Shown here: positions 20,743-49,944 of the stretch, in pieces | How positions within the stretch are numbered: the stretch's first letter is position 1 | How the letters are laid out: every line of letters begins with the position of its first letter | Assembly: GCF_002866065.1 (NCBI RefSeq) | Contig: NZ_LNJZ01000007.1 | Span: 40,388 to 104,387, forward strand | DNA length: 64,000 bases | From: Thiopseudomonas denitrificans | GTDB taxonomy: Bacteria > Pseudomonadota > Gammaproteobacteria > Pseudomonadales > Pseudomonadaceae | Direction: 5' to 3' | Position numbers and translations under genes: made by a program | The notes under the pieces: model-generated | Databases searched by the model: none | Seen by the model: the letters and a program-made list of their open reading frames with translations, nothing else | Told to the model about the DNA's origin: nothing

Positions 20743-22422
20743 ATGAGCGAAAGCTTTGCAGAACTTTTTGAAGAAAGCCTTAAATCCCTGGACATGCAGC
20801 CGGGCTCCATCATCACCGGTATCGTGGTTGATATCGACGGTGACTGGGTAACCGTACACGCCGGCCTGAAGTCCGAGGGCGTCATCCCCGTAGAGCAGTT
20901 CTACAACGAGCAAGGTGAACTGACCATTGCCGTGGGTGACGAAGTCAGCGTCGCGCTGGACGCGGTTGAAGATGGCTGGGGTGAAACCAAGCTGTCCCGC
21001 GAAAAAGCCAAGCGTGCCGAGTCCTGGCTGGTTCTGGAAGCCTCTTTCAACGCCGAGGAAGTGGTTAAGGGTATTATCAATGGCAAGGTCAAGGGTGGTT
21101 TCACTGTTGACGTCAATGGTATCCGTGCGTTCCTGCCAGATTCTCTGGTAGACGTGCGCCCTGTGCGTGACACCACTCACCTGGAAGGTAAAGAGCTGGA
21201 ATTCAAGGTCATCAAGCTGGACCAGAAGCGCAACAACGTGGTGGTTTCCCGCCGCAGCGTTCTGGAAGCTGAAAACAGTGCCGAGCGCGAACAGCTGCTG
21301 GAAAACCTGCAGGAAGGCCAGCAGGTCAAGGGCATTGTCAAGAACCTCACCGACTACGGTGCCTTCGTCGACCTGGGCGGCGTAGACGGTCTGCTGCACA
21401 TCACCGACATGGCCTGGAAGCGCATCAAGCACCCAAGCGAAATTGTCAACGTTGGCGACGAGATCGACGTCAAGGTGCTGAAGTTCGACCGCGAGCGCAA
21501 CCGCGTTTCCCTGGGTCTGAAGCAGCTGGGTGAAGATCCGTGGGTAGCCATCAAGGCGCGTTACCCGGAAGGTACCCGCGTACAGGCCAAAGTGACCAAC
21601 CTGACCGACTACGGCTGTTTCGCCGAGCTGGAAGAGGGCGTCGAAGGCCTAGTTCACGTCTCCGAAATGGACTGGACCAACAAGAACATCCACCCATCCA
21701 AAGTGGTACAGGTTGGTGACGAAGTTGAAGTCCAGATTCTGGACATCGACGAAGAGCGCCGCCGTATTTCCCTTGGCATCAAGCAGTGCAAAGCCAACCC
21801 CTGGGAAGAGTTCTCCGGCCAGTACAACAAGGGCGACAAGATCTCCGGCACCATCAAGTCCATCACCGACTTCGGTATCTTCATTGGTCTGGATGGCGGC
21901 ATCGACGGTCTGGTTCACCTGTCCGACATCAGCTGGCACGAAGCCGGTGAAGAAGCCGTTCGCAACTACAAGAAAGGCGACGAGCTGGAAACTGTCATCC
22001 TGTCCGTTGACCCTGAGCGCGAGCGCATCTCCCTGGGCATCAAGCAGCTGGAAGACGATCCGTTCTCCAACTACGCTTCACTGAACGAGAAGGGCAGCAT
22101 TGTCCGCGGTACCGTGAAGGAAGTTGACGCCAAGGGTGCCATCGTGGTTCTGAGCGACGACGTTGAAGCCGTACTGAAAGCCTCCGAAATCAGCCGTGAC
22201 CGTGTTGAAGACGCGCGCAACGTGCTGAAGGAAGGCGACGAAGTCGAGGCCAAGATCATCAACATCGACCGCAAGTCACGCGTCATCAACCTGTCCATCA
22301 AGTCCAAGGACGTTGAGGACGAGAAAGACGCGATGAAAGAACTGCGCAAGCAGGAAGTGGAAGCTGCCGGTCCGACCACCATCGGTGATCTGATCCGCCA
22401 GCAGATGGAAGGCCAGAACTGA
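20743..22422 (+). CDS. rpsA: 30S ribosomal protein S1
   Basis: 559 residues with six S1 RNA-binding repeats, the last four with the typical (T/D)YGAFV, HISDM and ERISLGIKQ motifs. It recruits mRNA to the 30S subunit. ATG at 20743 is chosen because S1 proteins start [12 protein letters not shown] and AGGA precedes it; an in-frame start at 20704 would add 13 unlike residues. The 118-base leader after cmk could hold the autoregulatory structure known in gammaproteobacteria, though I could not define it. A strong terminator follows, and ihfB, the usual next gene in Pseudomonas, is absent. Confidence 0.97.
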
Positions 22423-22440
22423 TTCTGGGCGACCATTAGA

Positions 22441-22468
22441 AAAAGGGGATGCTTGCATCCCCTTTTTT
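22441..22468 (+). terminator. Rho-independent terminator after rpsA
   Basis: A 12-bp perfect stem (aaaaggggatgc with gcatcccctttt) and a 2-base loop, followed by a run of six T. Confidence 0.92.
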
Positions 22469-22490
22469 GTGTCTGTCAGAAGGTGAAATG

Positions 22491-22730
22491 ATGCTTGAAT
22501 GTCGTTTGTACAGCACCCTGGGCTGTCATCTGTGCGAAGAGGCGGAAAAGGTACTGCAGCCGTTGTTGACGGTGTTGCCATTGCAAATCGAATGGGTGGA
22601 TATTGTCGAGCGGGAAGACTGGGTGGAGCGTTACGGCGTGCATATCCCGGTGTTTGCCCGGCTCGATACCGGGGCTGAGTTGTTTTGGCCTTTTACCACG
22701 CAGCAGGCGTGGGAGTTTTGTACCGGGTGA
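22491..22730 (+). CDS. Glutaredoxin-like thiol protein (DUF836 type)
   Basis: 79 residues with a thioredoxin-fold N terminus CRLYSTLGCHLCEEAE containing a CHLC redox motif near residue 10 and a cis-proline region GVHIPVFA. This is the glutaredoxin-2-like DUF836 family; the disulfide partner is unknown. ATG at 22491 has AGAAGG at seven bases, and the adjacent ATG at 22488 is equally possible. It lies directly after the rpsA terminator, so it probably has its own promoter or depends on read-through. Confidence 0.8.
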   Translation: MLECRLYSTLGCHLCEEAEKVLQPLLTVLPLQIEWVDIVEREDWVERYGVHIPVFARLDTGAELFWPFTTQQAWEFCTG

Positions 22731-22767
22731 TGTTTTTTCCTTCGGTGTTTTTGGTGTGTTCGGTGTG

Positions 22768-22882
22768 GCAGGGTGGCAGGGTGGCAGGGCGGTAGAGGCG
22801 CTACGCCAGGCTGACGCTGCCAGTGCCGAAGCGGAGCTTCGTCCCTGTTGCTAATGCCTGGCTTCGGCCTCTGCCACCCTGC
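22768..22882. repeat. short tandem repeat and inverted repeat
   Basis: An 8-base unit gcagggtg is repeated (22768-22792, last copy gcagggcg). The arm gcagggtggcag at 22768-22779 is perfectly complementary to ctgccaccctgc at 22871-22882, enclosing about 90 bases. No coding potential is seen. It borders the larger array that starts at 22939. Confidence 0.5.
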
Positions 22883-22938
22883 TGATACACCCAGGTGTTG
22901 GGGAGGGGGTGGCCCGGCTGTGCCGGGCTGCTGTCGCT

Positions 22939-23525
22939 GTGTAGGTCTCTGCATCCCGTGTGTACCTGTAGGTCCGAATTTATTCGGACATGTGCGGAAT
23001 TGATGAATGGAGACGGGAAAGGATGCGTGAGTTCATTTGTACATGAGCCCCATGTCCTGGCAGGGTCGGGCTGCTGTTGTTGTGTACGTCTCTGTATCCC
23101 GTGTGTACCTGTAGGCCCGAATTTATTCGGACATGTGCGGAATTGATGAATGGAGACGGGAAAGGATGCGTGAGTTCATTTGTACATGAGCCCCATGTCC
23201 TGGCAGGGTCGGGCTGCTGTTGTTGTGTACGTCTCTGTATCCCGTGTGTACCTGTAGGCCCGAATTTATTCGGACATGTGCGGTATTGATGAATGGAGAC
23301 GGGAAAGGATGCCTGAGTTCATTTGTACATGAGCCCCATGTCCTGGCAGGGTCGGGCTGCTGTTGTTGTGTAGGTCTCTGTATCCCGTGTGTACCTGTAG
23401 GTCCGAATTTATTCGGACATGTTCAGTAATGGTGAGTGGTGGCAGGAAAGGATACGTGAGTTCATTTGGGCATGAGCCCCATGGCCCGGCAAAGTCGGGC
23501 TTTGTCTGGATAAATCCGGACCTAC
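22939..23525. repeat. tandem 143-bp repeat array built on REP palindromes
   Basis: Units start at 22939, 23082, 23225 and 23368, exactly 143 bases apart. The first three are nearly identical; the fourth has diverged. Each unit carries a REP-type palindrome (gtccgaatttattcggac at 22972-22989 in unit one, with preceding GTAG), then a conserved interior with ggaaaggat and gttcattt. The last unit ends in an inverted palindrome gtctggataaatccggac (23504-23521) followed by ctac. Short open frames inside the units repeat with the same period and have no independent support as genes. This fills most of the 840 bases between the glutaredoxin-like gene and the phosphopantetheinyl transferase. Confidence 0.88.
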
Positions 23526-23570
23526 AACAGTGCAAGGGTACGAGCTGTTCTTGCTTAAAATCAAAGTTGA

Positions 23571-24287
23571 TCAGGCTGACAGATACACCAGCGTCAGCAT
23601 GCCGTGGCCGTAAGGGGTCCACAGGCAGGGGAATTCCATGCCGCTGTGGTACGTATCCGACAGGTCGCGCAGCAGTTGCAGGGTCAGCCAGCCGTCCTGT
23701 GCGTATTCGGTGATCCGGGCATCCTGGAAGCCGAAATATGTTCTGGTGAGCGGGTTGATGGCCTTGTACAGGCTTTCCTTGGCGGAGAAGATCAGTGTCA
23801 GTCGCCGGGCGGCTTCATCTTCGCTTAAATCATGCAACCAGTGTTGTTCGTCGGGGGTCAGGATTGCATCGCACAGGCGCAGGGCGCGCTTTGGGCTGAT
23901 GAGCCGCTCGATGTCCAGTCCCAGCCCGCTCCATTGTGTTGTGGGGCCGGCAATGGCTGCCGCCAGGCCATGACTGTGGGTAATGGAGCCACACCAGCCA
24001 TCAGGCCAGACCGGCAAGCCCGTATCACTGTCGCGCGTCGGTAACGAGGCGCATTGTCCGTTCTGGCCAAGCGCCTGTGCGGCGCAGAGGCGGCCGGCCA
24101 GGAATTCGCCTTGCCGTTTGCGGTTGCTGCCAGAGGGTTGCAAGCCGTGATCAAGCAGATCCTGTTCACGGGAGGCAGCCGGATCAAAGCATGCCGTCAC
24201 CAGTTGGCAACCTGGCAGACTGACCGTGAAAGGCCAGTTGCACGCCAGTGTTTGAATAAAACCGGGACGAATAGGGGATGAAGGCAT
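23571..24287 (-). CDS. 4'-phosphopantetheinyl transferase superfamily protein
   Basis: 238 residues of the EntD/Sfp-like type. Conserved motifs are SITHSHGLAAA, the magnesium-binding GLDIE near 122, and SAKESLYKAI near 167, with an N-terminal KRQGEFLAGR segment. It transfers phosphopantetheine from CoA to carrier proteins. In Pseudomonas a single broad-range enzyme (PcpS) serves both fatty acid and siderophore carriers; whether this is that enzyme is inferred only. It is divergent from cysB, and its 3' end abuts the tandem repeat array. Confidence 0.85.
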   Translation of the reverse strand: MPSSPIRPGFIQTLACNWPFTVSLPGCQLVTACFDPAASREQDLLDHGLQPSGSNRKRQGEFLAGRLCAAQALGQNGQCASLPTRDSDTGLPVWPDGWCGSITHSHGLAAAIAGPTTQWSGLGLDIERLISPKRALRLCDAILTPDEQHWLHDLSEDEAARRLTLIFSAKESLYKAINPLTRTYFGFQDARITEYAQDGWLTLQLLRDLSDTYHSGMEFPCLWTPYGHGMLTLVYLSA

Positions 24288-24384
24288 GATCGTGCTTGGC
24301 TGGAATGACTTTTCGTTATAAGATTGTCTTTTTTGAACAGCTATTATTATAAGAGCGCTGTATTATAACAATCCCGAGGCAACC

Positions 24385-25359
24385 ATGAAATTACAACAGC
24401 TGCGTTATATCTGGGAAGTGTCCCGCAACGGATTGAATGTATCAGCAACCGCACAGGTGCTGTATACCTCCCAGCCAGGCATCAGCAAGCAAATCCGCCT
24501 GCTGGAGGACGAGCTGGGCGTGGAGATCTTTGCCCGCAGTGGCAAACACCTTTCGCATATCACTGCCGCTGGTGAACAGGTCATTGCCGTGGCCGGCGAG
24601 ATTTTACGCAAATGCGAACAGATCAAGCAGATTGCCAACGAATTTTCCAACGAGCGGGAAGGGGTGCTGGCGGTTGCCACCACTCATACCCAGGCGCGTT
24701 ATGCATTGCCACCGGTGATCAGCAGCTTCATGCAGGATTATCCGGAAGTGTCCCTGCACATGAACCAGGGCACACCGGCGCAAATTGCCGAGATGGCTGC
24801 CGATGGTGCGGTGGACTTTGCCATTGCCACCGAAGGGCTGGAGGCGTTCCCCGAACTGATCACCATGCCCTGTTACCGCTGGAACCGCTGTGTGGTGGTA
24901 CCAAAGAATCATCCGCTGGCCGGTGTAGAGAAGATTACCCTTGAGCAGCTGGCCGAGCATCCAATCGTGACCTACGTGTTCGGCTTTACCGGACGCTCCA
25001 AACTGGACGAAGCGTTCAGCCTGAAGGGTCTGACGCCCAAGGTGGTATTCACTGCTGCCGATGCCGACGTGATCAAGACCTATGTGCGCCTTGGCCTGGG
25101 GGTCGGTATCGTTGCCGGCATGGCGGTGGACCCGCGTCAGGACAGTGACCTGGTGGTGCTGGATGCCAGCCACCTGTTCGAGTCCAGCGTGACCAGAATT
25201 GCTTTCCGTCGCGGCACCTTTTTACGCGGCTACATGTCGGCCTTCATCGAACAGTTCGCCCCCCATCTGACGGTGCGCATCCAGCAGGAAGCCATCCAGT
25301 GCCGTGACCAAAAGGAGCGTGACGAGCTGTTTGCCGACATGGAGCTGCCCGTCTACTAG
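24385..25359 (+). CDS. cysB: LysR-type regulator CysB
   Basis: 324 residues. An N-terminal winged helix-turn-helix (MKLQQLRYIWEV, TSQPGISKQIRLLEDELG) is followed by a periplasmic-binding-like effector domain with TTHTQARYALP, the acetylserine/sulfate-binding region of CysB. It activates sulfur assimilation genes. The upstream region (24310-24370) is AT-rich with three TTATAA-like motifs, so autoregulation is plausible. GAGG precedes the ATG. A terminator follows. Confidence 0.96.
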   Translation: MKLQQLRYIWEVSRNGLNVSATAQVLYTSQPGISKQIRLLEDELGVEIFARSGKHLSHITAAGEQVIAVAGEILRKCEQIKQIANEFSNEREGVLAVATTHTQARYALPPVISSFMQDYPEVSLHMNQGTPAQIAEMAADGAVDFAIATEGLEAFPELITMPCYRWNRCVVVPKNHPLAGVEKITLEQLAEHPIVTYVFGFTGRSKLDEAFSLKGLTPKVVFTAADADVIKTYVRLGLGVGIVAGMAVDPRQDSDLVVLDASHLFESSVTRIAFRRGTFLRGYMSAFIEQFAPHLTVRIQQEAIQCRDQKERDELFADMELPVY

Positions 25360-25389
25360 GTGGCTGAAACCGACCGGCCAGAGCGCAAT

Positions 25390-25418
25390 AAAAAACGCAG
25401 CCCGGAGCTGCGTTTTTT
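25390..25418. terminator. bidirectional terminator between cysB and the SCP2 gene
   Basis: A 12-bp perfect stem (aaaaaacgcagc with gctgcgtttttt) and a 5-base loop, with A and T runs on both sides. It serves convergent genes. Confidence 0.9.
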
Positions 25419-25433
25419 ATACCCGTGCTGCTG

Positions 25434-25748
25434 TTAGCCGGGGAACAGTTCGTTCAGCTTCATGGCCAGCATCATGTCGCCTTCGGTGCGCAGCTTGCCC
25501 ATCATGAAGGCCTGCATGCCATCGGTCTCGCCACTGGCCAGACCCTGAAAGGTCTCTGCATCCATGATCAGGGTTACGTTGGCGTCGGCGTTGTCACCTT
25601 CCTGCACATTACAGGCGCCATCCTTGACGGTCAGGTTGTAATTGCCGGCGTCTTCGATGTTGAACTGGAACACCAGATCCAGGCCAGCAGCAGCAGCAGC
25701 GTTGAAACGCTCGGTATAGGTCTTGATGTGATCAGCAACTGAGCTCAT
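25434..25748 (-). CDS. SCP2 sterol-binding domain protein
   Basis: 104 residues forming a single SCP2 domain: hydrophobic LDLVFQFNIED, NYNLTVKDGAC, then DANVTLIMDAETFQGLASG and GKLRTEGDMMLAMKL, the usual core. Such small bacterial proteins are thought to bind lipids or acyl chains; no specific role is known here. ATG at 25748 has GAAAGGA upstream; an open extension to 25823 is unlike the family. Confidence 0.9.
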   Translation of the reverse strand: MSSVADHIKTYTERFNAAAAAGLDLVFQFNIEDAGNYNLTVKDGACNVQEGDNADANVTLIMDAETFQGLASGETDGMQAFMMGKLRTEGDMMLAMKLNELFPG

Positions 25749-25974
25749 TTTATTTTCCTTTCTCGAAGTTGCGCCTGGGCGCCAAGGGTAGATGCCGCGG
25801 GTTTGCGGCGTTTGACAGGGCAAGGTTAGGGGCTGGTATCGCGGCTGTCAAACAATTTCATACGATTGTTTGAAATCTTGTCCGCAAGGGCTTCCGCAAC
25901 ATGGCAGGCCCCCGCTTTTTCTCCATTGCAGGTACAATCATGCTCTTTGATTGATATTGCAGGCTGGGGGTCAA

Positions 25975-26994
25975 GTGGATTTTTTACTGGATTATGCGGG
26001 TTTTCTGCTGCGTGCTGCGACTGTGCTTATTGTTCTTGTAGTGCTCCTGATTACTGTCGCCGGGCTCAAGGGCCGGCAGCGCAGCAAGGAGGGCGAGCTT
26101 GAAGTGCGCTCGATCAACGAACGCCTCGATGACATCAGGGAGGGCATGCAAGCCGCAGTGCTGGACAAGGCCGAGTTGAAAAAGCTGGCCAAACAGCGCA
26201 AGCAGCAAGAGAAACATGACAAGAAAAACCCGGTCAGCAAACCCAGGGTGTTTGTGCTGGATTTTGACGGCGATATCCGCGCCTCGGCCACCGACAGCCT
26301 GCGCCAGGAAGTCACCGCAGTACTGAGTCTGGCCGGCAAGGATGACGAGGTGGTGCTCCGCCTGGAAAGCGGTGGCGGCATGGTGCACAGCTATGGTCTG
26401 GCATCCTCGCAACTGGCCCGTATCCGCGATGCCCAGATTCCTTTGACGGTCTGTGTCGACAAGGTGGCCGCCAGCGGCGGCTACATGATGGCCTGTATCG
26501 GCAACAAGATCCTCAGCGCACCCTTTGCCGTGCTCGGTTCGATCGGCGTGGTGGCACAGATGCCCAACATTCATCGCCTGCTAAAGAAGAACGATATCGA
26601 CGTGGAGGTACTGACTGCGGGTGAGTACAAGCGCACGCTGACCTTCATGGGCGAGAACACCGAACAGGGCCGGGCCAAATTTTTGCAGGACCTGCAAACC
26701 ACCCACGACCTGTTCAAGAATTTTGTTGCCCGCTACCGGCCACAACTGGACATGGCCACGGTGGCAACGGGGGAGGTCTGGCTGGGCACTGACGCGCTGG
26801 CCAAACAGCTAGTAGACGAAATCAGCACCAGCGACCAATATCTGGTGCAACGTGCCCGGGAAGCCAGCGTGTTCCAGGTCAGCTATAGCTTCCGGAAGAA
26901 CCTGCAGGAGCGCATCGGCCTGGCTGCCGCCAGCACCGCCGATAATGTCGCAACACGACTCTGGCAGCGCTTGCAACAGGGCTTCTGGCATTAA
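25975..26994 (+). CDS. sohB: Inner-membrane serine peptidase SohB (S49 family)
   Basis: 339 residues. An N-terminal membrane segment (about 3-27) is followed by a charged coiled linker and the S49 signal-peptide-peptidase fold. The catalytic Ser167 lies in KVAASGGYMMA and Lys219 in GEYKRTLTFMG. The likely start is GTG at 25975, after GGGGG, giving an MDFLLDYAGFLL N terminus as in other SohB; a TTG at 25951 is in frame but less likely. SohB degrades membrane or periplasmic substrates. A gene for an alcohol dehydrogenase-like reductase follows 24 bases later. Confidence 0.92.
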   Translation: MDFLLDYAGFLLRAATVLIVLVVLLITVAGLKGRQRSKEGELEVRSINERLDDIREGMQAAVLDKAELKKLAKQRKQQEKHDKKNPVSKPRVFVLDFDGDIRASATDSLRQEVTAVLSLAGKDDEVVLRLESGGGMVHSYGLASSQLARIRDAQIPLTVCVDKVAASGGYMMACIGNKILSAPFAVLGSIGVVAQMPNIHRLLKKNDIDVEVLTAGEYKRTLTFMGENTEQGRAKFLQDLQTTHDLFKNFVARYRPQLDMATVATGEVWLGTDALAKQLVDEISTSDQYLVQRAREASVFQVSYSFRKNLQERIGLAAASTADNVATRLWQRLQQGFWH

Positions 26995-31105: not shown

Positions 31106-31229
31106 GTAGGTCCGGATTTATCCGGACAAGGCCCGGCATCGCCGGGCCTTGGGCCTTGTGCAAATGAATTTACACATCCTTTCCTGCCACGACTCACCCA
31201 ATACCGTATATGTCCGAATAAATTCGGAC
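31106..31229. repeat. REPIN-like composite element with inverted REP palindromes
   Basis: It starts with GTAG and gtccggatttatccggac (31110-31127) and ends with the inverted gtccgaataaattcggac (31212-31229). Inside are a 10-bp GC hairpin (aaggcccggc with gccgggcctt) and a decayed third palindrome gtgcaaatgaatttacac. Read on the minus strand it aligns along its length with the last unit of the array near 23.4 kb, including ggcaggaaaggat. It lies between convergent genes. Confidence 0.85.
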
Positions 31230-31264
31230 ATATAGATGGTCGTGGCCTGGATGTGATGATTGCC

Positions 31265-49883: not shown

Positions 49884-49944
49884 GTAGGTGCGAATTCATT
49901 CGCACAAAAAACGGCCGGCGTTGTGCGAATGAATTCGCACCTAC
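49884..49944. repeat. 61-bp REPIN-like inverted repeat in the RND operon
   Basis: GTAG, then palindrome gtgcgaattcattcgcac (49888-49905), a 13-base spacer (49908-49920), then the inverted palindrome gtgcgaatgaattcgcac (49923-49940) and CTAC. The outer 24 bases on each side are perfectly complementary. This is the least decayed pair in the window and lies inside the operon between the DUF2892 and TolC-like genes. Confidence 0.88.

Follow-up and report, generated by a model that had tools for sequence, protein, structure and literature searches.

A 143-base tandem REP array between converging genes of Thiopseudomonas denitrificans, probably a by-product of a REPIN inserted beside a second dispersed repeat

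The window analysed here, a stretch of 64,000 nucleotides from Thiopseudomonas denitrificans, contains a tandem array formed by a GTAG-type REP/REPIN element, and clusters of this kind have been described before. The array is probably a by-product. A REPIN would have inserted next to a second dispersed repeat, slippage between like hairpins would have duplicated a 143-base stretch, and later rounds would have acted on longer homology, the outcome being tolerated between gene ends. The features of the locus are listed below; the four units were placed by Tandem Repeats Finder, the REP scan and unit alignment.

22449-22730, forward strand: glutaredoxin-like gene, left neighbour, directed towards the array (PF05768, 54.8 bits)
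About 22772-22942, forward strand: element B, the second dispersed repeat, with the hairpin TGGCCCGGCTGTGCCGGGCT (22910-22929) in its final ~33 bases; 13 other matching places
22910-23052, forward strand: unit 1, with REP at 22968-22989; its left end is element B
23053-23195, forward strand: unit 2, with REP at 23111-23132
23196-23338, forward strand: unit 3, with REP at 23254-23275
23339-23481, forward strand: unit 4, the most diverged, with REP at 23397-23418
23482-23501, forward strand: terminal (fifth) hairpin, part of the REPIN spacer, 572 = 4 x 143 bases past the element-B hairpin and the same at 16 of 20 bases
23397-23525, forward strand: complete REPIN (REP, spacer, inverted REP), the presumed founder; predicted single long hairpin; relative at 31106-31233
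23504-23525, reverse strand: inverted REP closing the last unit (REP scan), paired in the predicted fold with the REP at 23397
23571-24287, reverse strand: 4'-phosphopantetheinyl transferase (PPTase) gene, right neighbour, directed towards the array (PF17837, PF01648)
31106-31233, reverse strand: dispersed single copy of the REPIN composite, its second REP without GTAG; 83% identity to query positions 486-617

Tandem Repeats Finder reported 4.0 copies of a 143-base period over 22924-23501, with 94% matches and no indels. The score of 981 was the highest of the 15 rows obtained for the window, in which the next was 52. The register can be extended leftward to 22910, giving four 143-base units at 22910-23481. 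The earlier note on this DNA had described four units at an exact period of 143 bases, and that repeat array stands; it begins 15-29 bases before the position 22939 given there, within the end of element B. The pairwise identities bear out its description of three nearly identical units and a diverged fourth, with unit 1 somewhat more distant. Out of 143 positions, units 2 and 3 agree at 141, units 1 and 2 at 133, and units 1 and 3 at 131; unit 4 agrees with units 1, 2 and 3 at 123, 129 and 129, respectively. Across the spacer, units 1-3 are mutually identical at 61-63 of 63 bases and match unit 4 at 51 of 63. The altered spacer common to units 1-3 suggests that these were amplified from one changed copy. 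Four forward REPs (at 22968, 23111, 23254 and 23397), each with CCT directly on its 5' side, are followed by a sole inverted REP at 23504-23525, matching the claim that only the last unit closes with an inverted palindrome.

That the array is an assembly artefact, with fewer or more units at the true locus, is highly improbable. REPs coincide with no fewer than three contig ends (C1:1-22, C2:1-22 and C7:134660-134681 of 134,682) and therefore probably break assembly. However, the four units all differ mutually, contrary to a simple duplicated-read error, and the array lies well within a 370-kb contig. Other kinds of repeat were tried and rejected. The array had been described as free of coding content, and none of the six open frames that overlap 22910-23525 (69-118 amino acids, at a cut-off of at least 60) gave a Pfam match at E ≤ 0.1, which disposes of a coding repeat. 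A CRISPR array was rejected because the entire 143-base period repeats, spacers too, so that there are no unique spacers. For structured RNA families, the sole hit of cmscan in 22400-23700 was to mir-703 at 22436-22472, beyond the array and below threshold (20.3 bits; gathering score 88). A plasmid-borne element was likewise rejected, since a search of the plasmid collection returned nothing.

In every unit there is a single 22-base palindrome of the form GTAGGTCCGAATTTATTCGGAC, that is, GTAG at one end and a body of the GTCCGAAT-TT-ATTCGGAC type, in keeping with GTAG-type REPs as 20-40-base palindromes that end in GTAG. The family is also dispersed at high copy, as the consensus GTAGGTNCGRATTNATYCGNAC has 437 sites (229 + 208) at no more than one mismatch in the 2.84-Mb genome, compared with 0 for the reversed pattern under the same conditions. 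REPINs are non-autonomous hairpin elements bounded by two inverted GTAG-type REPs, and RAYT transposases are thought to mobilise them. The last unit together with the inverted REP has this form: the predicted fold of 23395-23528 is one long hairpin with paired ends, at -58.5 kcal/mol, a value without a shuffle control. Units 1-3 contain no inverted REP and are not REPINs by themselves. The dispersed copy at 31106-31233 is closest to unit 4, sharing 85 of 103 bases with it; the figures for units 1, 2 and 3 are 80, 79 and 79. These results fit the proposal of a tandem expansion of a REP-bearing module beside one complete element, unit 4 with the inverted REP being that complete REPIN, and support its extension from one end. 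Elsewhere in the window, a close pair of REPs in opposite orientations (GTGCG type) at 49884-49944 forms a single REPIN-like dimer.

The second parent of the array is element B, a repeat of ~170 bases with several predicted hairpins. Its match list comprised 33 rows, namely the query itself, three internal array units, 13 long matches and 16 weaker or shorter ones; the 13 long matches are other places that align over 139-170 bases at 74-82% identity. We fetched the 14 element-B loci with ~1.5 kb on each side, and the REPIN spacer was absent from the 13 others and found at the window's own locus alone. The dispersed REPIN composite at 31106-31233, for its part, stands without element B. Element B is itself tandem at one place (G000:C5:97662-98154, L108; 177-base period, 2.8 copies), and at its left edge in the window lies a small tandem repeat of GTGGCAGG (22765-22789, 3.1 copies).

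Both parents contain a similar hairpin. Element B ends in TGGCCCGGCTGTGCCGGGCT and the REPIN spacer in TGGCCCGGCAAAGTCGGGCT, with CCCGGC...CGGGCT in both. When the window was compared with itself at an offset of 143 bases, which was picked after the array was seen, 0 of 62,801 other positions attained the 16 of 20 matches found between the hairpins at 22910 and 23482. Among themselves the three internal hairpins do not differ, and they resemble the two parent hairpins at 15 and 16 of 20 bases; being about equally near to both, they do not mark the crossover point. As both parents carry a like hairpin, exactly 4 x 143 bases apart, tandem duplication between the hairpins is the likeliest origin of the array.

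The REPIN, presumably moved earlier by a RAYT, would have come to rest 25 bases to the right of an element B copy (38 from its hairpin), between two convergent genes. In such a single-copy ancestor the CCCGGC...CGGGCT hairpins of element B and the REPIN would have stood 143 bases apart, and slippage or unequal exchange between the two may then have given the first duplication, an order of events that we infer. The duplicated stretch would have run from the element B tail through linker and REP across most of the spacer, with the inverted REP left out; the inverted REP would occur in the last unit only because it sits to the right of the second hairpin, outside that stretch. Subsequent rounds would have relied on the full 143-base homology. 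Directly observed in this scheme are the anatomy, both parents as dispersed repeats, the 4 x 143 register and a short gap in two congeners. The longest unbroken identity at the closing point is just 6 bases, and the hairpins match imperfectly; a homology-driven exchange would therefore be weakly seeded. A further point counter to a hairpin origin is that most arrays in this genome start at a REP on the left, which the window array does not.

This comparison draws on a scan for periodic runs in 47 stretches around REP places and the RAYT match, plus the window region 21001-26000. The scan gave 38 rows, from which three without a REP and seven overlapping or adjoining a listed array were dropped, leaving 28 arrays. 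In the fetched stretches that were scanned, the genome thus has no fewer than 28 tandem arrays with REPs, whose periods range from 43 to 231 bases. The left array edge coincides with a REP edge in 22 of 28, against 7.5 expected when the start is slid through one period (a count reached in none of 20,000 draws), and the right edge in 13 of 28 (7.5 expected, P 0.019). The excess is greater on the left although the choice of strand is arbitrary. Six arrays, the window array among them, have a left edge that lies away from a REP. As a description, without a null model, the closing homology includes a REP in 19 of 28 arrays and is 8 bases or less in nine, the window array among these nine. The most copies of any scanned array were found at L098 (G000:C6:203936-205225), where a 73-base unit with one REP is present in 17.7 copies with a successive identity of 1.00.

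An excess of borders at REP edges on both sides is what might be seen if the RAYT had seeded the duplications, with a nick beside a REP and rejoining or re-priming leading to head-to-tail copies. The E. coli TnpA-REP cuts at CT 5' or 3' of the REP, according to the part of PMC8266576 available to us, and CCT precedes all four forward REPs here. We nonetheless regard RAYT seeding as unlikely. Ordinary exchange between REPs in the same orientation yields an equal REP-edge pattern, the left edge of the window array is one of those not at a REP, and the only RAYT found has an in-frame TAG. It is similarly doubtful, if conceivable, that REPs, and occasionally other hairpins as here, act more generally as break or nick points, perhaps via RAYT cleavage, which would make array formation a by-product of the mobilising enzyme and not of random slippage. 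If this were true, the window array would be an exception to the REP-edge rule, having drawn on the hairpin of an unrelated repeat family.

A single place in the genome, C2:290579-290992 (L112 2580-2993), matches the REP-associated tyrosine transposase model NF047646, at 146.8 bits. The match contains one in-frame TAG directly before the HLH motif. REPs flank the match on both sides, so that a RAYT gene with its own REPs beside it, as belongs to a REPIN system, is present, albeit with the in-frame TAG. This TAG may be a true inactivation or a sequence error, and present mobility is therefore doubtful. If the TAG is real and the gene is the sole mover, the spread of the REPs would be over, with the arrays still changeable by recombination. 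The congener G001 has an uninterrupted NF047646 match of 136.6 bits, yet 0 of these REPs, and RAYT presence alone is therefore no predictor of this REP family. Two further candidates, G002:C60:9259-9621 and G003:C64:7682-8050, were rejected as RAYTs, since their strong Y1_Tnp matches are those of IS200/IS605-type transposases by NCBIfam.

The Pfam matches of the flanking genes agree with the earlier placement of the array between a glutaredoxin-like and a phosphopantetheinyl transferase gene. Separated by 840 bases, these genes converge on the array, and the distance from the REPIN end to the PPTase stop codon is 45 bases. For the PPTase protein, the closest named records are three MAGs, including a Thiopseudomonas sp. 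(60% identity) and an uncultured Pseudomonadaceae bacterium. The gene order rpsA, glutaredoxin-like, PPTase, LysR-type regulator is shared with the congeners G002 and G003, in which the gap measures 123 and 65 bases, respectively, these being other species and not strains. The gap comparison covers G002 and G003; G001 was left out, as neither a glutaredoxin-like gene nor rpsA was found beside its PPTase (L097). No REP was found at up to four mismatches in the three fetched congener PPTase stretches (L095-L097). At no more than one mismatch, the REP consensus has 0, 5 and 0 sites in G001, G002 and G003, and any site at all occurs in 4 of 57 genomes searched: this one, G002 with its five, and two others of the family with one each. 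Among these 57 genomes, the REP burst is confined to this genome.

The arrangement of neighbouring genes was surveyed at the 26 loci into which the 28 arrays fall. Gene calls rested on a simple codon-usage score, not a gene finder, and are rough; the glutaredoxin-like gene was missed, and the window array's left neighbour in the survey is rpsA, which has the same direction. By these calls, 23 of the 26 loci lie between called genes and three (L103, L167 and L177) overlap a called frame. Convergent neighbours were found at 14 loci, unidirectional ones at 10 and divergent ones at none, with two loci having no called left neighbour. Among the window's 51 adjacent gene pairs there are 6 convergent and 6 divergent ones, and the 24 fully called loci, with 14 convergent and 0 divergent, differ from these in the share of convergent neighbours (Fisher P 4.8e-5, whether or not the window array is counted; 1.3e-4 for all 26).

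The convergent excess and the absence of divergent neighbours among the 24 loci would suit a functional array like the E. coli BIME-2, that is, a gyrase or IHF landing site that absorbs supercoils between converging genes and whose copy number is selected. Gyrase targets E. coli REPs and relieves transcription-induced supercoiling, as stated in the portion of PMC3733652 available to us. Avoidance of promoters, however, accounts equally well for the position, two congeners have a short gap without an array at the same locus, the counts of these REPs in the three congeners are 0, 5 and 0, and the REPs of the array units are all in one orientation and do not alternate. Such a function is improbable here.

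Improbable too is that the array serves as a bidirectional transcript end, or as a set of mRNA-stabilising hairpins, for both flanking genes. Terminator prediction gave five terminator-like sites in 22400-23700 versus 1.4 +/- 1.1 in shuffles, three of the five being one repeated hairpin, and the PPTase stop codon is near the REPIN end as noted. However, all sites are on the forward strand, with no reverse-strand site in 22400-23700, two of the five fall within the glutaredoxin-like gene, G interrupts the T tails, and the tandem copies are left unexplained. The array hairpins may nevertheless end or stabilise transcripts. As to a selected function, there is most likely none; the array is best read as a by-product of a mobile element, tolerated because genes converge there and promoters are left undisturbed.

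The locus offers a clean case of an array probably born between two repeats, as both parents persist as dispersed copies, two congeners have a short gap and a candidate for the seed homology can be pointed to. Having no fewer than 28 arrays in 2.84 Mb, the species would be well suited to asking how arrays grow and whether a RAYT is needed. The open-licence literature searched contained no report on repetitive sequences in Thiopseudomonas, and the word is absent from the main text of PMC3733652. Neither a borrowed hairpin nor a count of borders at REP edges was met in the descriptions available to us from PMC3116915, PMC2613905 and PMC3733652, to which this statement is confined.

REPs clustered in tandem together with variable flanks are on record and have served for typing. 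The E. coli BIME-2 is REP-based, often tandem and intergenic, and in these respects the array is similar. Unlike BIME-2, in which REPs alternate within each unit, the units here have their REPs in one orientation, with the sole inverted REP at the array end. BIMEs unite a REP and an inverted REP, in the portion of PMC8266576 consulted. In the available text of PMC3733652, GTAG REP families have a GTAG terminus and a palindromic body, occur singly, as dimers and in groups that are reiterated together with flanking DNA, and lie between convergent or unidirectional genes in other REP-rich genomes, with RAYT genes flanked by GTAG repeats. The present family resembles these, having been set beside the 24 families of that paper by description and not by sequence. 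For the SMAG elements of Stenotrophomonas maltophilia, the sections of PMC2613905 at hand describe GTAG-tagged REP monomers or dimers in tandem with flanks of variable length, with units of 50 and 103 bp, a copy number that differs between strains, and no discerned rule of amplification. Similar to SMAG arrays, a GTAG-type REP is reiterated here with flanking DNA; the REP sequence and the host are different. In Pseudomonas fluorescens SBW25, according to the excerpts of PMC3116915 available, near-identical REPINs with their flanks form 16 tandem clusters, of which the largest consists of four REPINs and a REP over more than 700 bp; evenly spaced tandem REPs are also known, and RAYTs are present. 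In contrast to the RAYTs of SBW25 as there described, the single RAYT found here has an in-frame TAG. The array is like those SBW25 clusters, as presented in these excerpts, in being a tandem repetition of a REPIN that includes flanking sequence, and unlike them in that its unit omits the inverted REP and the flank repeated with it takes in the end of a second dispersed repeat.
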